Of a DNA stretch of 64,000 bases, positions 12,002 through 58,416 are shown piece by piece (within the stretch, counting starts at the first letter, position 1; every line of letters starts with the position of its first letter). The notes below the pieces were generated by a model. It saw nothing but the letters and a program-made list of their open reading frames with translations, did no database searches and was not told the DNA's origin. The stretch lies in NCBI GenBank assembly GCA_937951625.1, contig CALFBP010000073.1, forward strand, positions 1 through 64,000. Direction: 5' to 3'. The position numbers and the translations under genes were made by a program. This DNA is from an uncultured Thermoguttaceae bacterium. Its GTDB lineage: Bacteria; Planctomycetota; Planctomycetia; Pirellulales; Thermoguttaceae.

Positions 12002-13801
12002 TCAGGCGATGCTCTCTTCCAGTTGTCGCTTGTGGGCCCCGCGAAGCCAAGCCACGGTTACGGCCACGGCCACGTACAAGAGCTGGATCGCCATGGCGGA
12101 ATACACATAACCTTGGCCTCCGCCGCCGAAACCATAGCTGTGCAGGCCGGCGCCGAGCACGAAGTTCACGCCGTACCAGGCCATGATCACCAAGGCGAAG
12201 CACACTACGGAGAGGGCTGCCAACCCCAACTCGTTGACCCAGCCCACGTACCGCGCATGAAGCACTGCCAGGTATCCAAGCAGTGCGATCAAAGCCCAGA
12301 CCTCCTTGGGATCCCAGCCCCAGAACCTTCCCCAAGAGTAGTCCGCCCACACGCCGCCGAGGATCGTGCCCGCCGCCAGCAGCAACACGCCGACTTGGAG
12401 GGCTTTGTACGTGAATCGGGTCAGCGCGGCGATAATGTTTGGGTCCCGAGAACGCGCCAGGTAGTACCCCAGGGTGATATTGCCTACGCCCAGCGCCAAG
12501 GCAAAAGCCGCGTAGCTGAGCGTGATGCTCATCACGTGAGTCACGAGCCAGAAATTGCTGCGGAGCACGGGCTGCAAGGGCTTCAAGCTGGGGTCAAGGA
12601 TGGCCGGGGAATTGTCAGCCAGGATCAAGGCCACGGTGGTCACGGCGGCAGCCGCGACCATGATATAGCGGCTGCGGTAGATCGCCTCGAACACGAGTCC
12701 GAATAGAGCCGTACCCAACGCCAAGTACACCACCGATTCGTACATGTTCGTCACCGGCGCTCTGCCCGAGATCGCGATGCGGAGCCCGAAGCCGGCGAGC
12801 ATGGCCGCGAAGCTGAGCACGAACAAGGCCACGCCCACCGCGTAGAGCGGCTTCCAGTTCGTGCCCAGGCTGAGGGCAACGAGGAAGAACGCCAGCATCG
12901 CGAAAATCCAGGCGAAGCGGAAAGGTACCCAGTGGTTGTAGGCCACTTCCAGATCGAGCTTGCTTTGCGAAGGATAGACTCCCAGCTTCGGTCCCGCCTC
13001 CTGGAGCGTGGAGATGAATTCGCTCGAGGCCGCGTTGAAGGCCTCGGCTGACTTGCTCAAGAACGCTGCCCGAACCTTTTGGAACTGCTCCCGAACCTTG
13101 GCCAACGTCCCTTGCGCGTCGTCCAGGCCTTTCAGGTCGCCACCCATCAACTCGGCAACCGAGAGCCACTCGTGATGTTCGTTGCCGGGAATAGGGAGGA
13201 TTGCCAGCCTTTTGCCCGCACGGTGGTTGAGATACTCTGCGTAGTTGCCCGCCAATTCCAGGGCTTTGCGCTCCAGCGTGGGCAGGCCGCGGTCCTCTTC
13301 GCGGCTGACCTTTCTCACCCACAGCAAGAAGGAGGTTTCACGTCCGGAGCGTGGGTCGCGGATGGTGGCCTGACTCAATTCCGCGGGAGAAAGGTACTTT
13401 TGATCCGCGCTCATGCCGAGCAAATCGCGGAGTTCCAGGTAATCGACGCGCAACAATCCGGCCTTGTCCCATTTGTCCAGCGATCCGTGGGAGGGAAACA
13501 GCCCCGCTGGGCGGGCATCGCCTTGAGCCGCCGAATCCCAGCCCGGCCACTCGAAAAGCAATGTCAGGTAGGCGGCCGTGGCGCCCAGCTTTTCACCCGA
13601 CTCGGGATCGACCAGACTAGCGCGATTACAAAGGGTTCGCAGCGTTTCCCAGGCCAACGTGTCCAATGGCTTGTAGCGTCCGCCATCTTGCACGGCCAGA
13701 CGCCGCCAGGGCTCCCAATCAAAAGACGCTTGCGACCCTTCGGCGAACGCGGCCAAAGGAAAAACCAGGGAGACTATCGCGATTGCGATTGGCTTATGCA
13801 T
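12002..13801 (-). CDS. ccsA: cytochrome c biogenesis protein CcsA/ResC with long N-terminal extension
   Basis: A System II cytochrome c maturation protein of 599 residues that carries haem across the membrane with ResB and joins it to CxxCH motifs. The haem-handling WWD motif is visible as WGRFWGWDPKEVWAL, with conserved histidines in LVTHVMS and LHSYGFG and about eight membrane helices from residue 300 on. The first roughly 280 residues are extra: a signal peptide, then a soluble exported domain beginning YKPLDTLAWETLR. Typical CcsA has about 320 residues. The ATG at 13801 is preferred over the TTG at 13810 because GGAG lies nine bases before it. It follows resB by 94 bases. Confidence 0.93.
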   Translation of the reverse strand: MHKPIAIAIVSLVFPLAAFAEGSQASFDWEPWRRLAVQDGGRYKPLDTLAWETLRTLCNRASLVDPESGEKLGATAAYLTLLFEWPGWDSAAQGDARPAGLFPSHGSLDKWDKAGLLRVDYLELRDLLGMSADQKYLSPAELSQATIRDPRSGRETSFLLWVRKVSREEDRGLPTLERKALELAGNYAEYLNHRAGKRLAILPIPGNEHHEWLSVAELMGGDLKGLDDAQGTLAKVREQFQKVRAAFLSKSAEAFNAASSEFISTLQEAGPKLGVYPSQSKLDLEVAYNHWVPFRFAWIFAMLAFFLVALSLGTNWKPLYAVGVALFVLSFAAMLAGFGLRIAISGRAPVTNMYESVVYLALGTALFGLVFEAIYRSRYIMVAAAAVTTVALILADNSPAILDPSLKPLQPVLRSNFWLVTHVMSITLSYAAFALALGVGNITLGYYLARSRDPNIIAALTRFTYKALQVGVLLLAAGTILGGVWADYSWGRFWGWDPKEVWALIALLGYLAVLHARYVGWVNELGLAALSVVCFALVIMAWYGVNFVLGAGLHSYGFGGGGQGYVYSAMAIQLLYVAVAVTVAWLRGAHKRQLEESIA

Positions 13802-13895
13802 TTCACGCAACTCCGATTCGTTGATCGTCTGAATGCATCTCGGCCGGCCTCGATGCTGCGCGGGTCAAAGCCCTTGCAAGCCCGGTCCCGAAAGG

Positions 13896-34120: not shown

Positions 34121-34485
34121 CGGACGACACCACGGTCCTGCCAAAACTGAGAATCTTGGGATTGCCCTTGCGTCTGGTGTTCGCCCTACTCTGTTTCTCT
34201 TTGGGGCTCGTGCTCGCTGGGGCCGGTTGTGGCCGGCGGGAGGTATTCGAGACGGAGAGCGCGGCCAAGGCGGCCCTAGTGGGCAAGACCCCGCGAGAAG
34301 TCATCAATCGCTTGGGCGCCCCAAACTCGATAGCCACGGCGGGAAACGTCGACGGTCCCAATCGTCGATACTCAGAAAGCTGGACGTACTTGCGTTCGAT
34401 TCGGGATCCCAAGACCCGGGAACTCAAGACGCTAAAAATCCATTTTCTCCGCAATCGTGCGGTCGCCGTGGAAATCGAGAAGTGA
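34117..34485 (+). CDS. SmpA/OmlA (BamE)-like small lipoprotein
   Basis: A 122-residue protein whose hydrophobic segment ends at GAGC (lipid-modified Cys about residue 38). The body contains LVGKTPREVINRLGAPN, the helix-turn-Gly-x-Pro pattern of SmpA/OmlA domains, used in outer-membrane assembly. Start coupled to the TPR gene by ATGA overlap. No terminator was identified after it. Confidence 0.7.
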   Translation: MTDDTTVLPKLRILGLPLRLVFALLCFSLGLVLAGAGCGRREVFETESAAKAALVGKTPREVINRLGAPNSIATAGNVDGPNRRYSESWTYLRSIRDPKTRELKTLKIHFLRNRAVAVEIEK

Positions 34486-34555
34486 GGAAGAGCAGCCGCG
34501 TACACGGCGTGGCGTCGAAAACACGCTGTGAACTTTGGCTGGCCGACGGCATGTG

Positions 34556-34585
34556 TTGCGGATGGCGCCCGCCTGAACCTATAAT
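34556..34585 (+). promoter_or_regulatory. sigma70-type promoter for the 34646 oxidoreductase
   Basis: TTGCGG at 34556-34561 and a perfect TATAAT at 34580-34585 are separated by 18 bases. A start near 34592 would give a leader of about 55 bases. The -35 keeps TTG. It lies after the secretin operon stop, so the oxidoreductase is probably an independent unit. Confidence 0.55.
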
Positions 34586-34645
34586 CCTGCGCATGCCCGC
34601 CGGGCGTCTCTCACGTCCCATCCACCCGCCTTGGAGACCATTGCC

Positions 34646-36034
34646 ATGAGAAATGCTGCATCGATCACTCGCCGTCATTGGATTGCCGCCGGCGCCACCG
34701 CGGCGACCTTTTCCATCGTGCCGCGCCATGTGCTGGGCGGTCCCGGCCAAAAACCGCCGAGCGAGAAACTCAACATCGCCGGAATTGGACTTCACGGCAT
34801 GGGAGCAGGCGACATCCACAACTGCGCCAGCGAGAACATCGTGGCCCTCTGCGACGTGGACCAAAGCGTCCTCGACCGGCTGGCCAAGCAGTATCCCAAG
34901 GCCAAGCTCCACACCGATTTCCGCAAGATGCTGGAAAGCCAAAAGGACATCGATGCGGTGATGATCGCCACGCCCGATCACCTCCATGCCGTGGCCACCG
35001 TGATGGCCCTCAAACTCGGCAAGCACGTCCACTGCCAGAAGCCGCTGACCCATTCGGTCTACGAGGCCCGGGCCGTGGCCAAGGCGGCCAAGGAAGCCAA
35101 GGTGGCCACGCAGATGGGCAATCAGGGGCAGGCCAGGGAGGAAGCTCGTGTGGTATGCGAGTTGATCTGGTCGGGGGCGATCGGCACGGTGCGGGAAGTC
35201 CACGGTGGATCGAACCGCACTCCGATGATTTCTCCCCGCGGCATCGCCCGGCCCAAGGAAACCGCTCCGGTCCCGCCCCACTTGAACTGGGACCTGTGGT
35301 TGGGCCCGGCGCCGGAACGACCGTATTTGGACGTGTACCGCGAAGGTCCCTTCAAGGGGCAGCTCGTGTACCATCCTTTTTGCTGGCGAGGGTGGTGGGA
35401 TTTTGGGACGGGCTGCCTGGGCGACATCGGGTGCCATGAGTTTTCGGTGGTCTTCAAGGCGCTGGAGTTGGGACACCCCACGAAGATCGAGGCCTGCTCC
35501 TCGAATCACCCTTGGGGGCCGGAGGTGGCCGATGAGACGGCCCCCTTGGCTTCCATCACCCGCTGGTACTTCCCCGCCGAGCAGGTCGGTAAAGCCACGG
35601 GCGGCAACCGTTCCGCAATCACGCTCACATGGTGGGATGGGGGCCTGAAGCCGCCGCGGCCCGACGAACTCGAAGCGGACCGCAAGTTCGCCGAGGGAGA
35701 TTGGCTCATGATCGTCGGCGACAAAGGGAAGATCTACGGCCACCGTTTGATCCCCGAGTCGCGCATGCGCGAGATCGGCAAGCCGCCCCGCGTCCTGCCC
35801 CGGTCCCCCGGCCACTACAAGGAATGGATCGAGGCTTGCAAGGGCGGACCGCCGGCCGGATCGAATTTTGTCGACCATGCCGCCCATCTGGCCGAGGTCG
35901 TGCTCTTGGGCAATATCGCCATCCGGACCAAGGAAACGCTCTATTGGGACGGACCGAACATGCGATTCACCAACTCCGACGCAGCCAATGCGTTGCTCAA
36001 CCCGCCGTATCGCAAGGGCTGGACGCTAGGGTAG
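34646..36034 (+). CDS. Tat-exported Gfo/Idh/MocA family oxidoreductase (QKP variant)
   Basis: A 462-residue protein, paralogous to the 41463 gene. Its twin-arginine signal is ITRRHWIAAGATAATF. The Rossmann motif region is AGIGLHGMGAGD. The usual EKP motif reads VHCQKPLTHS, with the catalytic Lys kept. C-terminal segments WRGWWDFGTGCLGDIGCHE match the sibling. Likely an exported sugar dehydrogenase or oxidoreductase with bound NAD(P). The ATG at 34646 has GGAG eight to nine bases upstream; a TTG at 34631 is less likely. Confidence 0.9.
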   Translation: MRNAASITRRHWIAAGATAATFSIVPRHVLGGPGQKPPSEKLNIAGIGLHGMGAGDIHNCASENIVALCDVDQSVLDRLAKQYPKAKLHTDFRKMLESQKDIDAVMIATPDHLHAVATVMALKLGKHVHCQKPLTHSVYEARAVAKAAKEAKVATQMGNQGQAREEARVVCELIWSGAIGTVREVHGGSNRTPMISPRGIARPKETAPVPPHLNWDLWLGPAPERPYLDVYREGPFKGQLVYHPFCWRGWWDFGTGCLGDIGCHEFSVVFKALELGHPTKIEACSSNHPWGPEVADETAPLASITRWYFPAEQVGKATGGNRSAITLTWWDGGLKPPRPDELEADRKFAEGDWLMIVGDKGKIYGHRLIPESRMREIGKPPRVLPRSPGHYKEWIEACKGGPPAGSNFVDHAAHLAEVVLLGNIAIRTKETLYWDGPNMRFTNSDAANALLNPPYRKGWTLG

Positions 36035-36079: not shown

Positions 36080-37357
36080 TCAGGCGCCATCGGCTTTGGC
36101 CCGCACGTCGAACACACGAAGCTCCTGTTCGCAGCGGACGTACAATCGTCCGCCGCAGATGACGGGATGGGCGAGGTAGGTGTTGTCGGGTCGCTTGCCG
36201 AGGTCGAACTGGCTTACAATCTCGAAGCCTTCCGGCGTGATCGCCAGCAAAGACATGATGCCGCGGTGGTTCAAACAATAGAGCATCCCGTCGGCACACG
36301 AGATGCCTACCTTGCCGAGCGTCTTGTCCAACTTGAGCGTCTTGCCTGTCATGAAGTCGACGCAGTAGAAATTCCTACCCCCTTGACGGCAACCGCTCCC
36401 GAACAGCTTGCCATCGACCAGCACGGCGCCGCCGTGGCAGTTGTCCAAGTCTTTGCGATACCAGACGGTGGTGGCGGTGCGGGCCTCAGGGTCGATCTTC
36501 AACACCGTCCCGCCCGACCAATGGCCGCACGCCACGAAGACGTACCCCTCGTGGAAGACAGGGGTCAAGGCGTTTTGCGGCGACTTGGGAACGAAAGGAG
36601 CCGACCAAAGGAGCCTGCCCGTCTCCACGTCGATGCCCAACACCATCTTCTGCGACATGGTGATCAACTGCCGGACGCCTTGATAGGTGACCACCACCGG
36701 CGAGCAATACGCGGCAATATCCTGGACTTCCGTATTCGCCCAGATGGTCTCGCCCGTTCGTTTGTCCAAGGCGACCACGCGTCCTTTGGGGCCACCGGGC
36801 ATGCACAGGACCTTGTCGCCCTCGACCACGACGTTTTCGGCCAAGCCCCAGACGCCGTATTTGGCGTCGAACCGCCGGTGGAGGTCCACGGCCCAAAGCT
36901 CTTTGCCCGATCGAGCCTCGAACGCGGCCAGCCGCCCATTGGGATTCAAATGGAACAGGCGACCGTCGTCGAAGGTGGGCGTGGTCCGCGAGCCTGGGCT
37001 GGGTCCTTGCCACGCAGGACCGTTCGGCGCTTTCCAGAGGAGCTTGCCGTTCAAGTCGAGCGTGACGAGCATCTCCGTGTCGCCGAAGTCGCCGGCGGTG
37101 AAAACCATCCCCTGGGCGATGGTGACCCCGGAATACCCGTTGCCGCACGGCGCATACTTCCACACCAAAGGCGGCCCTCCCTCGGGCCAGCGCTTCAGCA
37201 GGCCTATTTCCGGCGCGATGTTGCTGCGTCCCGGGCCGTGAAACTCAGGCCAACTGGGACCCTCGTGGGCCTCCTTTGACGAATCGGCGAAGCCCAGCAT
37301 CATCGACAGGACAAGCAGAAAGACGCCGGTCGACCAAGTTGCGATGACCAACTTCAT
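36080..37357 (-). CDS. PQQ-like beta-propeller protein
   Basis: A 425-residue protein with an N-terminal signal or anchor (residues 4-22) and repeated propeller blades of the pattern G-x-l-x-a-l-d-x-x-t-G-x-x-x-W, for example RVVALDKRTGETIWAN and VLGIDVETGRLLWSAP. This is the PQQ_2-type outer-membrane lipoprotein-like fold; no dehydrogenase domain is attached, so it is unlikely to be an alcohol dehydrogenase and may instead be a scaffold. It is convergent with the 34646 gene and divergent from the cytochrome/FGE fusion gene. Confidence 0.85.
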   Translation of the reverse strand: MKLVIATWSTGVFLLVLSMMLGFADSSKEAHEGPSWPEFHGPGRSNIAPEIGLLKRWPEGGPPLVWKYAPCGNGYSGVTIAQGMVFTAGDFGDTEMLVTLDLNGKLLWKAPNGPAWQGPSPGSRTTPTFDDGRLFHLNPNGRLAAFEARSGKELWAVDLHRRFDAKYGVWGLAENVVVEGDKVLCMPGGPKGRVVALDKRTGETIWANTEVQDIAAYCSPVVVTYQGVRQLITMSQKMVLGIDVETGRLLWSAPFVPKSPQNALTPVFHEGYVFVACGHWSGGTVLKIDPEARTATTVWYRKDLDNCHGGAVLVDGKLFGSGCRQGGRNFYCVDFMTGKTLKLDKTLGKVGISCADGMLYCLNHRGIMSLLAITPEGFEIVSQFDLGKRPDNTYLAHPVICGGRLYVRCEQELRVFDVRAKADGA

Positions 37358-37480: not shown

Positions 37481-37511
37481 TTCCGTCAGACCCATTGAAG
37501 GAGGCTGGATC

Positions 37512-40500
37512 ATGGCGAGTTCGCAAGCCTTTGGGCGAAGCCGTGGATTGATTCGGGGGTTTCTAGCTGCCGGCGTGCTGGTCGGACTCTTGTTGGTTGG
37601 CTGGGGACGTTTGCCGCAAGCCTCCGCTGAGACGCCCATCAAGAGCCCACCGCCAGCGGATGCGAAGAGTTCCTTCATGATCCCGGCCTGGGCGTTTGAC
37701 CGCGGCAACGTGAAGACATTCACGCAGGAATACGCCGACGCGGGCCCGATGGTGGCCTACGGCGGCGAATCGCCGATCGTGGTGGAGTACGACATCGAGT
37801 TCCCGGTGAGCGGCACCTGGACGATTTGGATCTGCTATGCCGCAGCGAGCCCCCGGCCCGTGGCGCTCTCGTTGAACGAAATCTCATTGGGCATGGGTTG
37901 CCGGGGCGCAAGCGGGACGTGGAACACTTCGAGCGCGGCCTGGGAAAAGTCGTGCTCGCGGTGGTTTGCCCCGGGCAAGCACACGCTGCGGCTGAAACGC
38001 GACCACGACTTTCCCCACATCGTGGCCCTGCGGTTCGACTGCTCCACGCCATTTCCCGACGGTTGGAAACTCGACCGCCCCCATGCGCGGAAAATCGACA
38101 GCCCGATCACCTACCTCTTTTCTCGCGATGTTTCGCTCCCCAATCCCGACTCGCTGCGTTTGGCCATCGAGGACTTGATCGCCACCTTCGGCCCGAGGTA
38201 TCCCCAGGGCGACAAGTATTTGAGTCAGCTCGACATGTTGAGCAAGCGGTGGAGGGAGTTGGACGAGAAACTTCGCCAGGGGCAGTTGTCGGTGGAAGCG
38301 GAGCGGAAAGCGGTGGAACAAGCACTCGCCGCGCTGGCCCGCGAGGCCCTGCTTGCCAATCCGCTCCTGGATTTCGACCGGCTGCTGTTGGTGCAGCGGG
38401 GAGAAAAATCGCCGATGCTCGGCCTGCCGTACAATTGGCAGAGCAATTCTTGCCTGCCCAAGACGGGCTATGACGACCAGATCGCCGTGCTCTCGCCGGT
38501 GCGGCCCGAGGGAAAGCTCTCCACGCTCTTCAAGCCCGACGGCGGCCGATTCGTAGGCGACGTGGACCTCGACTTCGATGCCGAGAAACTGCTCTTCTCC
38601 ATGCCCGGCTCCAATGACCGCTGGCAGGTCTTCGAGATCCGCGTGGACGGCACAGGCCTCCGCCAACTGACCGGCGAACAGCCCGACGTGGACAGTTACG
38701 ATGCTTGCTACTTGCCGAGCGGGAAGATTCTCTTTACCTCCACGGCGTGTTTCATCGGCGTGCCTTGCGTGTACGGAAGCTCGCACGTGGCGAACCTCTA
38801 CGTCATGGACGCCGACGGCCGCAACATCCGCCAGCTCTGTTTCGATCAGGAGCATGATTGGTGCCCCACCGTTCTGAATAACGGCCGCGTGTTGTACACA
38901 CGGTGGGAGTACAGCGATACGCCGCACTCGAATACCCGGTTACTGTTCTCGATGAATCCAGACGGAACGGGTCAAATGGCCTATTTGGGGAGCAACTCCT
39001 ACTGGCCCAACTCGTTCTTCTACGCGCGGCCGATTCCCAATCATCCGACCAAAGTGGTCTCGGTCATTGGCGGCCACCACGACAATCCGCGGATGGGCGA
39101 GCTGGTGATCTTCGATCCCGCCTTAGGCCGCAACGAGGCGGAACCGGCGGTGCAACGCATCCCGGGCTACGGCCAAAAGGTGGACCCGATCATCCGCGAC
39201 GGCCTGACGATCAACAGTTGGCCCAAGTTCCTGCATCCCTATCCGCTGAGCGAGAAATACTTCCTCGTGGCCTGCAAGCCCACCCCGCAAGCGCGATGGG
39301 GGATTTACCTGGTGGACGTGTTCGATAATTTCGTCCTCATCAAGGACCTGCCCGGCTACGCCCTGTTCGAGCCGATCCCGCTGCGGAAAACGCCGCGCCC
39401 GCCGGTCATTCCCGACAAGGTGGACCTCGCCCGGGCCGACGCGGTGGTTTACATTCCCGACATTTACGTGGGCGATGGTCTCAAAGGGGTTCCTCGCGGC
39501 ACGGTCAAAGCGCTGCGGCTGTTCACCTATCATTTCGCCTATCAAGACATGGGCGGCCTGCTGGGCGTGGTGGGCATGGACGGCCCCTGGGACATCAAAC
39601 GGGTTCTCGGCACAGTGCCGGTGTATCCCGATGGCTCGGCCAAGTTCCGCGTCCCGGCCAACGTGCCCATCTCGCTTCAACCCTTGGACGAAGAGGGCAA
39701 GGCGATCCAGTTGATGCGCTCATGGATGACCGCCATGCCGGGCGAAGTGGTCCAATGCTCGGGCTGTCACGAGCCGCAGAACACCGCCCCGCCGCGAGTC
39801 TCGTCGATGGCCCTGACGCGGCCCCCGGTGAATATCGAACCATGGCGGGGACCCTTGCGCGGTTTCAGCTACCAGCGCGAGGTCCAGCCGGTGATCGACA
39901 AGTATTGCGTGGGCTGCCACAACGGCCAGCCTCGGCCGGACGGCCAAAGCATCGCCGACCTTCGCGGCAACGTGAAACTCACCGATTGGTCCTCGGTCAC
40001 GCCAGGCAACGGCGGGAAGAGCGCGGGCAAGTTCTCCGTCGGCTACGCGGAGTTGCACCGCTACGTCCGCCGGCCCGGTATCGAGAGCGATTTCCACATG
40101 CTTGAACCCATGGAGTTCCACGCCGACACGACCCAGTTGGTGCAAATGTTGAAGAAGGGCCATTACGGGGTCGAGTTGGACGCCGAGGCCTGGGACCGGT
40201 TGATCACCTGGATCGACCTGAATTGCCCGTACCACGGTACCTGGGGAGAAGAAATCGATAAGCCGGGTCGGCAGCGGGAGCGTCGTCGCGAGTTGTTGAA
40301 GCGGTATGCCAACGTGGACGACGATCCGGAGGCCGTCCCGCCCATGCCCACCCAGCCCGTCGAGCCTGTGTTGCCCCGCCCGCCCGCGACGGTTGGCCCC
40401 TTGGCCGTCGATTGCCCAGGCTGGCCCTTCGACGCGAACGAGGCGCAGCGGCGTCAGCAAGCCGCCGCTCCTGAAACCCGCAAAACAATCGACCTGGGCC

Positions 40501-41348
40501 GGGGCATCGTGTTGGAATTGGTCCTCATCCCTGCTGGCGAATTCGTGATGGGAAGCGCAACGGGCGCGGCCGATGAACAACCGCTCGCCCGCGTCCGCAT
40601 CGAAAGGCCCTTCTGGATGGCCGCCAAGGAGGTGACCAACCAGATGTATCAGCTCTTCGATCCCAAGCACGACAGCCGCATCGAGGACAAGAACACCTAC
40701 CAGTTCGGCATCCACGGCTATCCGGTGAACCGGCCGGAGCAACCAGTCGTCCGCGTTTCCTGGTTGGAGGCGGTGGCCTTCTGCCGCTGGCTCTCGGAAA
40801 AGACCGGAATGCAGTTTGCCCTGCCCAGCGAGGCGGAGTGGGAATACGCTTGCCGCGCCGGGTCGGCTGCGGCGTTCAGCTTTGGCGACTTCAACGCCGA
40901 TTTCTCGAAGTTCGCCAACCTGGCCGACGCCAAGTTATCGGAATTCGCCAGCGATCCCTTTACGGTGGACACGCCGCTGACGAACCCCTCGAAATACGAC
41001 GATTGGCTGCCAAAGGACCCCCGGTTCAACGACGGGGCCTTGGTGACCGTCGCGCCTGGCCGGTATCAGCCGAACGCCTGGGGGCTGTATGACATGCACG
41101 GCAACGTCGCCGAATGGACCCGATCGACTTACCGACCCTATCCCTATGTGGACGAACCGCTCGCCGCCTCGCCCTCGAACGTCGGGCGTAAGGTCGTGCG
41201 TGGCGGGTCGTGGCGCGATCTGCCGAAACACGCCACGTCGAGCTACCGCTTAAGCTACTTGCCATATCAACGGGTGTTCAACGTCGGCTTCCGGGTCGTG
41301 GCCGCAGCGAGCGAGCCATCCAAGCACACCCCCTTGGCAAGCCGCTAG
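37512..41348 (+). CDS. diheme cytochrome / TolB-like propeller / FGE-domain fusion (hydrazine-synthase-alpha-like)
   Basis: A 1,278-residue exported protein. A signal or anchor (residues 10-37) is followed by a carbohydrate-binding-like beta region, a propeller with TolB-like blades (about 375-520; DADGRNIRQLC and DGTGLRQLT units), and a c-type haem motif CSGCH at 749-753. A second, CVGCH, lies at 799-803. A FGE-sulfatase/SUMF1-type domain (about 993-1265) ends with VVRGGSWRD and FNVGFRVV. The middle resembles the alpha subunit region of hydrazine synthase. The C-terminal domain lacks the paired cysteines of true formylglycine enzymes, so it may have another oxidative or binding role. The ATG has AAGGAGG seven bases before it. 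The haems would be matured by ResB/CcsA. Confidence 0.85.
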   Translation: MASSQAFGRSRGLIRGFLAAGVLVGLLLVGWGRLPQASAETPIKSPPPADAKSSFMIPAWAFDRGNVKTFTQEYADAGPMVAYGGESPIVVEYDIEFPVSGTWTIWICYAAASPRPVALSLNEISLGMGCRGASGTWNTSSAAWEKSCSRWFAPGKHTLRLKRDHDFPHIVALRFDCSTPFPDGWKLDRPHARKIDSPITYLFSRDVSLPNPDSLRLAIEDLIATFGPRYPQGDKYLSQLDMLSKRWRELDEKLRQGQLSVEAERKAVEQALAALAREALLANPLLDFDRLLLVQRGEKSPMLGLPYNWQSNSCLPKTGYDDQIAVLSPVRPEGKLSTLFKPDGGRFVGDVDLDFDAEKLLFSMPGSNDRWQVFEIRVDGTGLRQLTGEQPDVDSYDACYLPSGKILFTSTACFIGVPCVYGSSHVANLYVMDADGRNIRQLCFDQEHDWCPTVLNNGRVLYTRWEYSDTPHSNTRLLFSMNPDGTGQMAYLGSNSYWPNSFFYARPIPNHPTKVVSVIGGHHDNPRMGELVIFDPALGRNEAEPAVQRIPGYGQKVDPIIRDGLTINSWPKFLHPYPLSEKYFLVACKPTPQARWGIYLVDVFDNFVLIKDLPGYALFEPIPLRKTPRPPVIPDKVDLARADAVVYIPDIYVGDGLKGVPRGTVKALRLFTYHFAYQDMGGLLGVVGMDGPWDIKRVLGTVPVYPDGSAKFRVPANVPISLQPLDEEGKAIQLMRSWMTAMPGEVVQCSGCHEPQNTAPPRVSSMALTRPPVNIEPWRGPLRGFSYQREVQPVIDKYCVGCHNGQPRPDGQSIADLRGNVKLTDWSSVTPGNGGKSAGKFSVGYAELHRYVRRPGIESDFHMLEPMEFHADTTQLVQMLKKGHYGVELDAEAWDRLITWIDLNCPYHGTWGEEIDKPGRQRERRRELLKRYANVDDDPEAVPPMPTQPVEPVLPRPPATVGPLAVDCPGWPFDANEAQRRQQAAAPETRKTIDLGRGIVLELVLIPAGEFVMGSATGAADEQPLARVRIERPFWMAAKEVTNQMYQLFDPKHDSRIEDKNTYQFGIHGYPVNRPEQPVVRVSWLEAVAFCRWLSEKTGMQFALPSEAEWEYACRAGSAAAFSFGDFNADFSKFANLADAKLSEFASDPFTVDTPLTNPSKYDDWLPKDPRFNDGALVTVAPGRYQPNAWGLYDMHGNVAEWTRSTYRPYPYVDEPLAASPSNVGRKVVRGGSWRDLPKHATSSYRLSYLPYQRVFNVGFRVVAAASEPSKHTPLASR

Positions 41349-41462
41349 CCGCACCATGCTCGGCGTCAGGAAATCGTCTTTCTCGTGGTTTCCAGGAGTC
41401 GTTTTTATCCATGGTTTCCGCGACTTGTCGTTCTCGATAGCCAACCTGTGAGGAGTATGCCA

Positions 41463-42911
41463 ATGCGAGGTGTGCGGAGAATCCCAATTACGCAGCGAAA
41501 CCGTTGTCGCTTTTCCCGACGACGCCTTCTTGGTTTGGGCGCGGCGGCCGCCGTAGCGACCGTGGTGCCGCGTTACGTGCTAGGAGGACCGAAGTTCGTG
41601 CCGCCGAGCGAGAAGGTAAACATCGCCATCGTGGGGGCCGGGGGGCAAGGCCGCACCAACGCACGCAATCTGTTCCACGAAAAAGACGCCCAGATCATCG
41701 CCGTTTGCGACGTGGCGGAAAAAACCGACCTCAGCCCGTTCTATTATGGCGGATTCGCCGGCCGTGCCGTGGTGAAGGCCGAGGTCGAAAAGCACTATCA
41801 AGAGACCAATCCTGCCTTCCGTTGCGCGGAATATGTGGACTTCCGTGAAATGTTGGAGAAGGAAAAGGCCATCGACGCCGTGCTCTGCGCCACGCCCGAT
41901 CATGCCCATGCCGTGGTTTCGATCGCGGCGATGCGGGCAGGCAAGCATGTGTATTGCGAAAAGCCGTTGACGCACAGCGTCTGGGAGGCCCGGCAGGTGG
42001 CCCGCGTGGCCAAGGAGACCGGCGTGGCCACGCAGATGGGCAACCAGGGGCATTCGGGCGAGGGCCTCCGCCAGACGTGCGAGTGGATCTGGGACGGGGC
42101 CATCGGCCCGGTCCGCGAGGTCCACGCTTGGAGCGATACGGGCAAATGGGCCAGAGGGCCTGGCCGACCCCAAGAGACCCCGCCCGCCCCCGAGGGCCTG
42201 AATTGGGACCTTTGGTTAGGTCCCCGGGAAACGCGGCCGTATCACCCGGCCTATGCGCCTTACAACTGGAGGGGATGGTGGGCCTTTGGCACTGGGGCGA
42301 TCGGCGACATGGACTGCCACAACATCGATCCCGCCGTCTTGGCCTTGAAACTCGAACATCCCCTCAGCATCGAAGCGACCGCCGGGGGGGAAGTCGACGA
42401 AGAAGTGGCCTCGGCCTACGGGGCGATCCATTATTATGAGTTCGGGCCGCGGGACGATATGCCTCCCGTGAAGTTAGTTTGGTACGATGGCGGCCTCCGC
42501 CCGCCTACTCCCCCGGGCATCGATCCGAATGATCCGCGCCAGCGCCTGGGCGAAGGCTCCAACGGCATCCTTTTCATTGGCGACAAGGGGATGATTACGT
42601 GCGGCGGCTGGGCCGGAATGCCCCGCCTGCTGCCGCTCGAGCTGCACCGCGAATACAAACGGCCGGCCAAGACGTTGCCGCGGAGCAAGGGCCACCATGC
42701 GGATTGGCTCGCCGCGTGCAAGGGTGGCCCCCCGGCCAGCGCCGATTTCCAGTATAGCGCCCGGTTGACTGAAATCGTGCTCCTCGGCAGCGTGGCCCTC
42801 CGCTGCAAAAAGAAGATCCTCTGGGACGGTCCGGCCATGAAGGCCACCAATGCCCCCGAGGCGGATCGCTTCCTCAAGGACGAATACCGCAAAGGTTGGG
42901 AAATCGCGTGA
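41463..42911 (+). CDS. Tat-exported Gfo/Idh/MocA family oxidoreductase (EKP)
   Basis: A 482-residue protein, paralogous to the 34646 gene: both share MGNQG, an IW-x-GAIGxVREVH segment and W(R/N)GWW. Its twin-arginine signal is FSRRRLLGLGAAAAVA. The nucleotide motif is AIVGAGGQGRTN, and the EKP motif is intact (VYCEKPLTHS). GAGGAG seven bases before the ATG at 41463 fixes the start over an ATG six bases earlier. It follows the fusion gene by 114 bases, so the two may be co-expressed. Confidence 0.9.
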   Translation: MRGVRRIPITQRNRCRFSRRRLLGLGAAAAVATVVPRYVLGGPKFVPPSEKVNIAIVGAGGQGRTNARNLFHEKDAQIIAVCDVAEKTDLSPFYYGGFAGRAVVKAEVEKHYQETNPAFRCAEYVDFREMLEKEKAIDAVLCATPDHAHAVVSIAAMRAGKHVYCEKPLTHSVWEARQVARVAKETGVATQMGNQGHSGEGLRQTCEWIWDGAIGPVREVHAWSDTGKWARGPGRPQETPPAPEGLNWDLWLGPRETRPYHPAYAPYNWRGWWAFGTGAIGDMDCHNIDPAVLALKLEHPLSIEATAGGEVDEEVASAYGAIHYYEFGPRDDMPPVKLVWYDGGLRPPTPPGIDPNDPRQRLGEGSNGILFIGDKGMITCGGWAGMPRLLPLELHREYKRPAKTLPRSKGHHADWLAACKGGPPASADFQYSARLTEIVLLGSVALRCKKKILWDGPAMKATNAPEADRFLKDEYRKGWEIA

Positions 42912-54779: not shown

Positions 54780-56594
54780 CTACGGTGCGGCATATTGGGA
54801 TGTGGATGATTCTACGATGACGATCCGTTGATCGACGGGCACCGACTCGAGGATATCGGTCCCCCCTCCGATCCAACGAACCTCAATGCGATCGACGCGG
54901 GTCCGATCCCCCAAGCCGAAGTGGAGTCGGGAACCGAAGTGGCCTTGGTAGCTGCGGCCGCTATGCACTTCGTCGATCTGCACCAGATCTCCAGCGGTGA
55001 CAGTGACGCGAGCCCCAACTCCGTCGCGGTTCGTTTTAACGCCACGAAGCTGAATTTGCAGCCAATGTCTTTTCGAACCCGACTCGTTGAGCATGTTGCG
55101 GAGGATGGAGGGCCGATCCCGCGAATTGAGCGCGACAATATCGATATCGCCATCGTTGTCGAAGTCTTCGAGGGCAATACCTCGGGTGACATGGAGCGAT
55201 TGGAGTCCGTCGCCGCACTGCGGGGAAAGTTGAAGGAACTTGCCGTGGCCGGCATTCCACAAAACGACGTTGGGAGCACGATACATGGCCGAGCGGTCCA
55301 TGCGTTCCACGTTATCTTCAGTATGGCCATTGGCGATGAACAGGTCCGGCCAGCCGTCGTTGTCGAAATCGGCGAAGCCGCAGCCCCAATTGACGTGATG
55401 GAAGCAACCCGCTCCCGCGTTGGCCCGAGCGGAAACGTCCTCGAATAGCCCGTGACCGAGATTTTGGAACAGCGCCGGCATTTGCCGCTGATAATTCGTG
55501 GTGTAGAAGTCCAATCGCTGATCCCGGTCGAAGTCTGCGGCATCGACGGCCATGTTGGCCAGGATCTCGCCTTCGATGTTGTAAGCGACCCCACTGGCCA
55601 CAGCGACCTCCTCGAATTGAGTGCGGTCGTTGCGGAAGAGGAAGTTCTCCTGGACATCGTTGCAGATGAAGACATCGGTGTCGCCGTCGGCGTCGTAGTC
55701 GGCGCAGATCATTCCCATGCTTCTGCCCGCGTAGGCCGCGATTCCCGTTTCCTTGCTGACATCGGCGAAGACGCCGTCCCCGCGATTACGGAAGAGGGTA
55801 TCGGGCACGGCGGCGTATTCGACCGGCGAGGGATACGAAGGGATATTGCCGACAAAATGCAATCGATGGCTTTGTAAATCGAGATCGATGTAGTTGCCGA
55901 CGTAGAGGTCCAGATCGCCGTCACAATCGAAGTCGAGAAAACACGCGCCCGCCCCGACGAGATGGCCGCGTGCGACTCCAGCCGCCGACGTCACATCGCG
56001 GAACGTACCGTCGCCTTGGTTGCGGAACAGGAGATTGGGGCCGAAATTGTTCAAGTAGATATCGGGATTCCCATCATTGTCGTAGTCGCCAACGACGATT
56101 CCCAGCCCATAGGCTTCACAGTGGAGTCCCGCTTCGTCAGTGACTTCCTTGAATCGCCACGAACCGAGATTCCGATAGAAGGCGTGGCGTGGGGGCGTGT
56201 CGGAAACATAACCCGGAAGCGGGGCGCCGTTGGGAAAATAGATGTCGATCCAGCCGTCCCCGTCGTAATCCAAGGTTCCCACCCCGGCCGACATGGCCTC
56301 GACGATATAATGTTGTCCGCTCGATCCATCGGTGTGCTGGAACGTGATGCCGGTCTCGCTGCTAATGTCCCGAAACTGGGTGGGACACGCGGTAAGCGTG
56401 GTTTGTGCGGGCGAGGCCGGAGCACTGAAATTTCGGGGCGCGATTGGCCCGCGGTCGGTCGAAGCGGTAGGAGAGGAAACTTGGCTGGCGGGCATGGGCC
56501 CCAAACTCCAGTAACGACCACCGGCCACCACCGCCGCGGCCAGAACCACGAGCGCAATCAAAACCGTCCAGCGACTCCGGGAGAGAGAACTCAT
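54780..56594 (-). CDS. CRTAC1-type FG-GAP/ASPIC-UnbV protein (second copy)
   Basis: A 604-residue protein from the ATG at 56594; the frame is open to 56822 without family resemblance. A membrane segment (about residues 9-27) precedes an exported region of FG-GAP/VCBS blades (DYDGDGWIDIYFPNG, DYDNDGNPDIYLNN and others) in a propeller. The C-terminal ASPIC/UnbV domain contains GVGARVTVTAGDLVQIDEV and RIEVRWIGGGTDILE. Related eukaryotic CRTAC1 binds calcium in the loops. It lies 13 bases after its paralogue at 56608-58416. No ribosome site is clear. Confidence 0.85.
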   Translation of the reverse strand: MSSLSRSRWTVLIALVVLAAAVVAGGRYWSLGPMPASQVSSPTASTDRGPIAPRNFSAPASPAQTTLTACPTQFRDISSETGITFQHTDGSSGQHYIVEAMSAGVGTLDYDGDGWIDIYFPNGAPLPGYVSDTPPRHAFYRNLGSWRFKEVTDEAGLHCEAYGLGIVVGDYDNDGNPDIYLNNFGPNLLFRNQGDGTFRDVTSAAGVARGHLVGAGACFLDFDCDGDLDLYVGNYIDLDLQSHRLHFVGNIPSYPSPVEYAAVPDTLFRNRGDGVFADVSKETGIAAYAGRSMGMICADYDADGDTDVFICNDVQENFLFRNDRTQFEEVAVASGVAYNIEGEILANMAVDAADFDRDQRLDFYTTNYQRQMPALFQNLGHGLFEDVSARANAGAGCFHHVNWGCGFADFDNDGWPDLFIANGHTEDNVERMDRSAMYRAPNVVLWNAGHGKFLQLSPQCGDGLQSLHVTRGIALEDFDNDGDIDIVALNSRDRPSILRNMLNESGSKRHWLQIQLRGVKTNRDGVGARVTVTAGDLVQIDEVHSGRSYQGHFGSRLHFGLGDRTRVDRIEVRWIGGGTDILESVPVDQRIVIVESSTSQYAAP

Positions 56595-56607
56595 GAACGG
56601 GCCCCGT

Positions 56608-58416
56608 TCATTGGCGCGGCACGAAAAAAGAAGGCTGCTCGGCGATCCCGTGTCCTTCGACGATGATCGCCAACCGATTGATGGGGACATTTTCCACAAT
56701 GTCCGTTCCGCCGCCAATCCATCGCACCTCAATCCGGTCCACATGATCGTGGGGGCCAAGACCAAAATGCAGTCGCAACCCCCAATGGCTCTGATACCCG
56801 CGACCGCTATGGACTTCGGCAATTTGCTTCAAGCCGCCAGCCACCACGCGGACCTGCGCACCGACTCCGTCGCGATTCGTCTTGACCCCGCGCAGAAGAA
56901 TTTGCAGCCAATGATTCCGACCGCCCGATTCATAGTACATGTTGCGGAGCACAGTGGGCCGGTCGCGGGCATTGAGGATCACGACGTCTACGTCGCCGTC
57001 GTTGTCCAGATCCTCGAAAGCGGCGCCCCGACTGGAGAAGACGGGCAACATCCCGTCGCCGGCCCGATCGGTGACGTCCACGAATCGTCCTTGCCCATCA
57101 TTCCAAAGCAGGACGTTTTTCGCGCGATAGGAAGAAGTCTCATCATAGTGGTCGATCAGGTCTTGCAGGTGGCCCATCGCCACAAACAAGTCGCGCCAGC
57201 CATCGTTATCGAAGTCGACGAAGCCGCATCCCCACTTCACGTTGTTCAAGGTGCCTTGGCCTGCCCCCGTGCCGACGGTAACGTCCTCCAACAAGCCGTT
57301 TCCCAAGTTGCGGAAGAGCACGGGCAATTCGCGGTGGTACGAGGTTTGGTAGAAGTCGAGCCAACCATCGTTATCGTAGTCGCCGCAATCGACGCCCATA
57401 CTGCCTAATGCCATGCCTTCGCTGTTGTATTTGAAACCATTGGCCAGCGCGACTTCTTCGAAATTGCCGTACCCATCGTTCTCGAAACAGAAATTTTGGA
57501 AGACGTCGTTGAGCACGAAGATGTCCGTGTCGCCATCGCGGTCATAATCTGCGCAGACAATTCCCATGCCCTTGCCGGGGTGTTGGGCAATGCCGGAGGC
57601 GTCCGTGATGTCGGCAAAGGTTCCATCACCAAGATTCCGGTAAAGGCTGTGTCGGTCAGGGGGATAGGCCTTGGGGCCAGGATACTCGGGGTAACCGTCG
57701 CGAAACACCACAAAGTGCTTATCATAAGAGAACTTCATGTAATTGGCGACGAATAGATCGAGCAACCCGTCCCGATCGACGTCGAGGAAGGCCACGCCCG
57801 CCCCAAGCCGATCTCCATCGGCCACGCCCGCCTCCTGAGTCACCTCCTGAAACGTGCCATCGCCGTTGTTGCGGAAGAGGACTTTAGGACCGTAATTGCT
57901 CACGTAAAAATCAAGATCCCCGTCGTTGTCGTAGTCCGCCGCAGTAGCGCCCAAGCCGAATGCCGTACACAGCACCCCGCTTGCCTCAGACACATCCTCA
58001 AACGTCCAATCGCCACGGTTCCGGTACAAGGCATGTCGCGGTGTGGTGTCCGCCTTGCTGCCAGGCAGTGGAGCGCCATTAGGAAAATAAATGTCGATCC
58101 AACCATCCCCGTCGAAGTCGAATAGGGCCAGCCCTGAAGTGACGGTCTCGGGGTCATAATGATGGCCGCCGCTACCGTCGGTGTGCCTGAAGGTGATGCC
58201 AGTCTCGTCCGTAACGTCGCGGAGCTGGATCGGGCCAATCGGCAGATTGGAAGGCCGCGGCGACGCCCCGCCCCACGGAACGGTTGACGTCACCGCGTGT
58301 GCGGTCTGGTCGGCCGTAGGTGAGCGGGAAGGGTTTCGAGGAGGCCTGACGAACCACCCGACAATCGCCAGGATTGGTACGAGGATAGCCACTCCAATCC
58401 ATGAACGACGCCCCAC
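56608..58416 (-). CDS. CRTAC1-type FG-GAP/ASPIC-UnbV protein (first copy)
   Basis: A 602-residue protein, paralogous to 54780-56594 throughout: both begin the blade region with ETGITF-x-HTDGS-x-G-x-HY and end with an ASPIC/UnbV domain (GVGAQVRVVAGGLKQIAEV; IEVRWIGGGTDIVEN). GAGGAG is seven bases before a GTG at 58416, so I choose that over the TTG at 58431. A membrane segment lies at about residues 8-25. It follows the 58441 TPR gene by 24 bases. Confidence 0.87.
   Translation of the reverse strand: MGRRSWIGVAILVPILAIVGWFVRPPRNPSRSPTADQTAHAVTSTVPWGGASPRPSNLPIGPIQLRDVTDETGITFRHTDGSGGHHYDPETVTSGLALFDFDGDGWIDIYFPNGAPLPGSKADTTPRHALYRNRGDWTFEDVSEASGVLCTAFGLGATAADYDNDGDLDFYVSNYGPKVLFRNNGDGTFQEVTQEAGVADGDRLGAGVAFLDVDRDGLLDLFVANYMKFSYDKHFVVFRDGYPEYPGPKAYPPDRHSLYRNLGDGTFADITDASGIAQHPGKGMGIVCADYDRDGDTDIFVLNDVFQNFCFENDGYGNFEEVALANGFKYNSEGMALGSMGVDCGDYDNDGWLDFYQTSYHRELPVLFRNLGNGLLEDVTVGTGAGQGTLNNVKWGCGFVDFDNDGWRDLFVAMGHLQDLIDHYDETSSYRAKNVLLWNDGQGRFVDVTDRAGDGMLPVFSSRGAAFEDLDNDGDVDVVILNARDRPTVLRNMYYESGGRNHWLQILLRGVKTNRDGVGAQVRVVAGGLKQIAEVHSGRGYQSHWGLRLHFGLGPHDHVDRIEVRWIGGGTDIVENVPINRLAIIVEGHGIAEQPSFFVPRQ

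Follow-up and report, generated by a model that had tools for sequence, protein, structure and literature searches.

An HzsA-like, predicted diheme core with CBM35-like and FGE-type domains in an uncultured Thermoguttaceae bacterium

Hydrazine synthase (HZS) makes an intermediate of anaerobic ammonium oxidation (anammox). Its origin had been unclear before distant homologues, with no function assigned to them, appeared in print in 2025. What such a relative may do outside anammox bacteria is the question raised by a gene at positions 37512-41348 of a 64,000-nucleotide stretch of DNA, here called the window, from an uncultured Thermoguttaceae bacterium (GenBank assembly GCA_937951625.1, contig CALFBP010000073.1, positions 1 to 64,000). 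Its product, P0001, falls in a large non-anammox branch of the family, and its added modules point to glycan substrates.

Domain organization and fold of P0001

P0001 begins with a signal-like stretch, followed by a beta-sandwich and a linker of three helices. Next come the propeller, the HZS_alpha domain, which contains the motif CSGCH, and the second cytochrome domain, which contains CVGCH; the C-terminal domain is of the formylglycine-generating enzyme (FGE) type. The features are as follows (CBM, carbohydrate-binding module):

37498..37504, plus strand: AAGGAGG, ribosome-binding-site-like, 7 nt before the ATG of P0001 (direct reading)
37512..41348, plus strand: coding sequence of P0001 (1278 aa), a predicted diheme protein of HZS_alpha/FGE type (open reading frame and Pfam matches)
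37512..37631, plus strand: signal-peptide-like N-terminus, residues 1-40 (predicted from sequence)
37665..38057, plus strand: CBM35/CBM6-like beta-sandwich, residues 52-182 (model versus 2w1w_B: Z 14.6, 125 residues, 2.2 Å)
38145..38354, plus strand: three-helix linker, residues 212-281 (structure model)
38370..39392, plus strand: HzsA/TolB-like beta-propeller, residues 287-627 (structure model and structural matches)
39498..39773, plus strand: HZS_alpha middle domain PF18582, residues 663-754 (Pfam, 110.6 bits, cut-off 26.6)
39756..39770, plus strand: CSGCH, haem 1 site, residues 749-753, followed by EPQN in place of HzsA xGSY (sequence and alignment)
39864..40262, plus strand: second cytochrome-c-type domain, residues 785-917 (model)
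39906..39920, plus strand: CVGCH, haem 2 site, residues 799-803 (sequence and alignment)
40515..41300, plus strand: FGE-sulfatase/SUMF1-like domain PF03781, residues 1002-1263 (Pfam, 156 bits, cut-off 23.3)

The open reading frame is a genuine gene, given that it is open across all 1,278 codons from the ATG at 37512, is preceded by AAGGAGG, encodes strongly matching domains and has almost full-length relatives with 66-70% identity. Coding bias, measured over a longer frame from 37344, amounted to a GC3 of 0.80 versus a GC2 of 0.47. Judging from its N-terminus (residues 1-40), in which no lipobox was found, P0001 is probably exported. A first-pass annotation, made from the sequence alone, had described a 1,278-residue protein with a propeller, two CxxCH motifs and a C-terminal SUMF1-type domain, and reading frame, Pfam matches and structure model bear this out. 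It had overlooked the N-terminal CBM35/CBM6-like domain, as well as the 13 other HZS_alpha proteins of the genome and the HzsBC-like partner genes, the last of which were not visible to it.

For the modelled core (residues 37-985; pLDDT 84.9, pTM 0.81) the top solved-structure match was HzsA, the alpha subunit of hydrazine synthase (Foldseek E 2.3e-27). In VIA-align, 563 residues of the core were superimposed on HzsA 5c2v (Z 32.6, 2.8 Å; next chains at about 26), residues 287-917 of P0001 being placed on HzsA residues 55-808; the propeller also matched TolB (Z ~25). As its PF18582 score exceeds the curated cut-off more than fourfold, P0001 belongs to the HZS_alpha domain family, and the resemblance of its middle part to hydrazine synthase alpha, noted in the first pass, holds. 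The core is thus predicted to have an HzsA-like fold made up of propeller, HZS_alpha middle domain and second cytochrome c domain. A weak match of the linker to EAD11 (17.9 and 20.3 bits, cut-off 26) was set aside because it falls on predicted helices.

The N-terminal domain, when modelled alone (pLDDT 83.9), aligned with the CBM35/CBM6 structures 2w1w, 2w47, 4qb2 and 2cdp over 118-125 residues (Z 14.2-14.6, 16-18% identity). The highest of these scores assigns it to the CBM35/CBM6 beta-sandwich fold; none of the Pfam CBM models matched it. Eight paralogues in the same genome carry modules above Pfam cut-offs (six F5/8 type C, one NPCBM, one LamG), so that, together with the CBM35-like fold of P0001, 9 of its 14 HZS_alpha proteins have a module of a glycan-binding type. 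The N-termini of 73 FGE-type proteins gave Pfam matches to NPCBM (7), F5/8 (5), LamG (5), CBM6 (2) and DUF4960 (7); any given protein may be counted under more than one of these. A constant redox core thus carries exchangeable modules of often glycan-binding kinds.

The C-terminal domain contains only two cysteines, C1091 and C1114, and none in the stretch after RGGSW (approximately residues 1233-1262). The catalytic cysteine pair of true FGE presumably follows the RGGS motif; the claim that this domain lacks the FGE cysteines was therefore confirmed, subject to that position. Among 94 relatives with the RGGSW motif, 30 retain a cysteine in the following stretch, usually one, and the loss thus varies. 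Four FGE-type proteins (L154, L160, L162 and L176) have C-x5-C after GGSW, near the presumed catalytic-pair site, while most others have one cysteine or none. The best solved-structure match of the domain was PvdO, and the lipoproteins PorK/GldK scored like true FGE.

Haem motifs and relation to hydrazine synthase

Both CxxCH motifs lie within the HzsA-like fold and were invariant across a 16-row alignment, and the pair was present in 77/77 called family members, so that they are not chance occurrences. P0001 therefore probably binds two haems. Two HZS_alpha-type proteins with a single CxxCH were seen, at L087 7876-11904 (plus strand), with HEAT repeats in its C-terminal half, and at L093 5994-9950 (minus strand).

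P0001 is not HzsA, as judged from its sequence, tree position and genome. On the HzsA equivalog NF052339, whose cut-off of 800 bits was exceeded by 17 of 294 sampled Planctomycetota genomes, it scored 42.8 bits. All 17 HzsA proteins have a Tyr at position +4 from the His of the first CxxCH; in HzsA of locus L058 this is residue 591, and H587 and C303 are also present. The equivalent residue in P0001 is Asn757, and Tyr was found in 0/145 relatives. The haem motifs are 50 residues apart in P0001 versus 102 in eight listed HzsA. At the column of the HzsA zinc-site residue Cys303, P0001 has Asn495 and 7/8 HzsA have Cys, in an alignment to HzsA that is loose outside the haem motifs; according to the main text of Hagglund et al. 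(2025; PMC12758564), Cys303 is missing from some anammox bacteria too. The column of His772, the distal ligand of HzsA haem alphaII, holds Leu929 in P0001, again within loose alignment. His884, kept in 134/145 relatives, is a candidate distal haem ligand in the second cytochrome domain. Other residues conserved in the non-HzsA family (n/145) are R464 (140), W465 (137), Y467 (137), H523 (132) and C419 (137); position 464 is Ser in HzsA and in proteins resembling the published clade I of HZS homologues.

Genes for HAO/HDH-type proteins (PF13447) numbered 0 in this genome, 0 in genome G017 and 12 in the anammox control G233, in keeping with the first-pass view that the organism is not an anammox bacterium. 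A decaheme protein on contig C68 of this genome scored 26.6 bits in an HAO/HDH-type search. The results on residues and gene content agree with the lack of key catalytic residues in non-anammox HZS homologues that the main text of PMC12758564 reports.

Family, partner genes and neighbourhood

The PF18582 domain was present in 58 of the 294 genomes, 17 of them anammox. Seven non-anammox genomes have at least 12 HZS_alpha copies, and sampled genomes reach 16 or more paralogues, 16 being the ceiling of the scoring. A scan of GTDB contigs yielded at least 577 relatives, and the record titles of the best 80 name Planctomycetota, Verrucomicrobia, Hydrogenedentes, Lentisphaerae, Kiritimatiellae and Armatimonadetes, among others; by these records the FGE-fused clade of P0001 covers several phyla. 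Because these 80 loci were picked with an FGE-bearing alignment, FGE presence among them is biased. Gene calling was crude: no core was obtained in three loci (L146, L179, L184), and antisense frames were miscalled in L090 and at window positions 34424-35887.

A FastTree phylogeny was computed from one alignment of 153 cores, with FastTree support values, and was rooted on HzsA by choice; 8 of the 17 HzsA were included. Three genes occur twice among the 145 non-HzsA sequences (L019/L127, L091/L119, L108/L067). Dropped were L121_9 (no CxxCH in the cut reading frame), L065_x and L071_x (wrong reading frame) and any sequence with fewer than 330 residues before haem 1. All 98 FGE-type tips, P0001 included, formed one clade (support 0.886) apart from the eight HzsA. 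Closest to HzsA were the clade-I-like proteins L085_6, L108_5 and L063, with P0001 distant in a separate clade. The comparison with HzsA that the first-pass annotation had proposed thus placed P0001 far from it, and an HzsA-type placement accompanied by hydrazine genes was not found.

Among non-alpha neighbours in the 80 loci, the most frequent cluster was a gene of about 615 aa, present in 13 loci. Its product matches CCP_MauG and cytochrome c models and combines a propeller of the 7-bladed type with a two-haem domain of the MauG/cytochrome c peroxidase (CCP) type. When the 13 proteins were made into a profile, complementary parts of it hit HzsB (196 bits) and HzsC (152 bits) from an anammox genome; the gene is hereafter called beta-gamma. 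It directly adjoins an FGE-type alpha gene in 9/13 loci, compared with 3.1 predicted by gene number (P 4e-4). Of the other four loci, L160, L109 and L125 have it next to a different alpha gene, and L126 has it at a distance of two called genes. Among 277 non-anammox genomes, 41 had alpha, 30 a beta-gamma match above 300 bits and 23 both (4.4 expected; Fisher 1e-16, uncorrected for kinship). At family level, 17 families share the two, out of 27 and 19. In genome G304 one open frame (L203 4545-8519, minus strand) encodes both units as one chain of roughly 1,325 aa with four CxxCH, and a one-strand array in G302 (L204) consists of a double alpha gene, an FGE-type alpha gene, another alpha gene and one beta-gamma gene truncated where the contig ends. 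Genome G428 offers a further side-by-side pair (L201: 6991-8826 and 8832-12101). Of the HzsC residues compared across 18 beta-gamma proteins, His144 and Asp168 show no conservation and Cys165 occurs in only three, in a region of gapped alignment. The recurrent partner in relatives is thus this HzsB+HzsC-like gene and not the flanking Gfo/Idh/MocA gene. The genome of P0001 holds four copies, on contigs C68 (within a clade-I-like cluster), C72, C23 and C88.

Several other arrangements were observed. The double gene of L204 (4616-10105, minus strand) is a frame of 1,830 codons with two tandem alpha cores. In L019 1-5708, on the same contig as L127, an FGE end, a full FGE-type alpha gene and the start of another CBM35-like N-terminus follow in tandem. 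The clade-I-like cluster of this genome (G000:C68, L085 5804-12550, minus strand) encodes an alpha-like protein (671 aa), a CRTAC1/FG-GAP protein and a decaheme beta-gamma-like protein, in the same gene order as in G017 (L108). In the window, an FG-GAP/UnbV_ASPIC (CRTAC1-type) protein is encoded at 54780-56822 (minus strand); it is 38-39% identical to its counterparts in the clade-I-like clusters and 57% identical to one beside the alpha paralogue L075_7.

The following further genes of the window were considered:

34631..36034, plus strand: upstream Gfo/Idh/MocA gene (PF01408 at 34814-35119)
36080..37357, minus strand: divergent neighbour, BamB/PQQ_2-type propeller
41385..42911, plus strand: Tat-signal-like Gfo/Idh/MocA protein, 36 bp downstream of P0001 (NF058561, 407 bits, cut-off 750)
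12002..13810, minus strand: CcsA-type cytochrome c assembly gene (PF01578, 108.3 bits at 12155-12751), possibly a maturation factor

The downstream product falls below the cut-off for glycoside 3-dehydrogenase NF058561. With 76 Gfo/Idh/MocA matches in this genome, such a gene follows 3/14 alpha genes (P ~0.002 post hoc, 3,800 genes assumed). The first-pass annotation had proposed co-occurrence with the two flanking oxidoreductases as a check; among relatives (77 loci) only 11/687 neighbours and 1/38 downstream same-strand slots were of this type, against a background of about 2%. Near the closest relatives L090, L093, L109 and L110 no match to the downstream protein was found, gene calls being poor around L090. 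Gfo/Idh/MocA genes were accordingly rejected as recurrent partners, and the BamB/PQQ neighbour was set aside because its matches near relatives are weak.

Possible role and comparison with known systems

We tentatively favour the view that P0001 is exported, is directed to glycans and acts as the alpha-type subunit of an HZS-like redox enzyme, although this falls somewhat short of being probable. Its N-terminal module, perhaps helped by the C-terminal, C-type-lectin-like FGE domain, would tether the protein, outside the cell membrane, to a polysaccharide or a glycoconjugate. A beta-gamma-like protein encoded elsewhere in the genome as a separate chain would dock on the alpha core as in hydrazine synthase; this complex would form in trans, since P0001 has no such neighbour and three of the four copies in the genome are unlinked to alpha genes. 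Electrons would pass between the alpha substrate pocket (Arg464-Trp465-x-Tyr467, His523, haem 1) and the MauG/CCP-type haems, and either a bound sugar would be oxidised or a small oxidant reduced at its expense. Haem 1 would be canonically His-ligated, unlike the Tyr-ligated haem alphaI in HzsA, which reportedly gives a rhombic EPR signal at g 6.29/5.65 (PMC12607021), and the 14 alpha paralogues with their different binding modules would share four beta-gamma units. The redox role on an exported sugar or nitrogen compound suggested in the first pass is thereby partly supported: the CBM35-like N-terminus and the modules of the paralogues speak for a sugar, and the nitrogen compound found no support.

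A number of observations weigh against this proposal. No beta-gamma gene lies near P0001, and the copies on C72, C23 and C88 are unlinked to any alpha gene. Genomes in the co-occurrence count are not phylogenetically independent, 18/41 alpha-positive non-anammox genomes lack a beta-gamma match above 300 bits, and 7/30 beta-gamma genomes lack alpha. The gene occurs in only 13/77 loci of relatives, themselves chosen for holding alpha, and the single-chain fusion comes from one metagenome-assembled genome that is 61% complete. F5/8 and LamG folds also bind non-glycan ligands, Gfo/Idh/MocA genes are not enriched near relatives, and sulfatase neighbours, as a raw count, number 10 genes in 9/80 loci.

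P0001 might instead be an exported cytochrome with an electron-transfer or structural role, linking cells on a surface electrically with an acceptor or donor outside them, or a haem-bearing adhesin, with haem 1 devoid of chemistry. The cytochrome-c-type setting of haem 2, the binding-type modules at both ends, the many paralogues and a haem alphaII to which PMC12607021 ascribes no known function in HZS are all consistent with this; nevertheless, polar and aromatic residues private to the family and conserved across 145 relatives exceed the needs of a plain wire, and the pairing with a MauG/CCP-type protein also argues against it, so that we consider it unlikely, if worth keeping in view. A function in peroxide defence, with beta-gamma as a cytochrome c peroxidase and alpha as its electron donor or surface tether, would account for the CCP_MauG and cytochrome c matches and for the CCP/MauG-type Trp that the main text of PMC12758564 describes in clade I-III homologues. 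It is improbable given that 14 alpha copies with differing binding modules are hard to explain in this way and that the genome encodes another, separate protein of CCP type (C40, 203.8 bits).

The same strand, the 36-bp gap and the three paralogues likewise followed by a Gfo/Idh/MocA gene would suit P0001 as electron acceptor of the Tat-exported glycoside 3-dehydrogenase-like protein; with near-background frequency in relatives and no nearby match in the closest ones, we regard this as quite improbable. Very little speaks for P0001 being a haem-bearing formylglycine-generating enzyme or sulfatase maturase: the 156-bit FGE-sulfatase match is offset by the Cys-free stretch after RGGSW (a loss that varies among relatives), by PvdO as best solved-structure match, by PorK/GldK scores like those of true FGE, and by the apparent export of P0001. 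Least credible of all is a true hydrazine synthase subunit or a maker of another N-N compound. Here the HzsA fold and the HzsBC-like genes of the genome are outweighed by the HzsA score, residues and tree position, by the non-conservation of H144, C165 and D168 in 18 beta-gamma proteins, and by the lack of HAO/HDH genes.

The data suggest that hydrazine synthase grew from a wider family of exported redox proteins. A more far-reaching and rather doubtful idea is that HZS-like alpha/beta-gamma complexes form a widespread class of haem oxidoreductases targeted to glycans in Planctomycetota, Verrucomicrobiota and allied phyla, their redox core constant, their modules swappable and several alpha units sharing few beta-gamma units, hydrazine synthase being a side branch whose modules were lost and whose haem alphaI became Tyr-ligated.

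Compared with known systems, P0001 shares with HzsA (Kuenenia, 5c2v; NF052339) the propeller, HZS_alpha domain, second cytochrome domain and two CxxCH, and its relatives have homologous beta and gamma partners. It differs in the missing Tyr591 equivalent, the haem-motif spacing, the Asn at the Cys303 column, the extra terminal domains, the absence of hydrazine-oxidising genes and its distance in the tree. The HZS homologues of clades I-IV, as described in the main text of PMC12758564, also include non-anammox alpha proteins, some beside a fused beta-gamma gene, and resemble P0001 in that catalytic residues are not conserved; formylglycine, SUMF1 and sulfatase are not mentioned in that text. 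The present genome also holds a clade-I-like alpha/CRTAC1/decaheme beta-gamma cluster (C68), and P0001 belongs to a different clade from such proteins. Planctomycete-type cytochromes bearing CBMs (PSCyt; main text of PMC5615132) provide a precedent for the P0001 family, although the other domains described there differ, and the word hydrazine is absent from that text. PvdO, PorK/GldK and FGE have in common with P0001 an FGE-type domain by sequence, the catalytic Cys pair being absent in P0001; CBM35/CBM6 modules share the fold of its N-terminus, at low identity and without a Pfam CBM match. No title on the FGE-fused form was found in a literature search that covered neither most subscription papers nor any supplements and so is no proof of absence. 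The HZS homologue family and some alpha/beta-gamma clusters are already published, whereas the modular architecture, its breadth and the single-chain fusion are new here; they give a concrete, testable guess at the role of hydrazine synthase relatives and draw attention to haem enzymes of uncultured bacteria that may form a class acting on polysaccharides.

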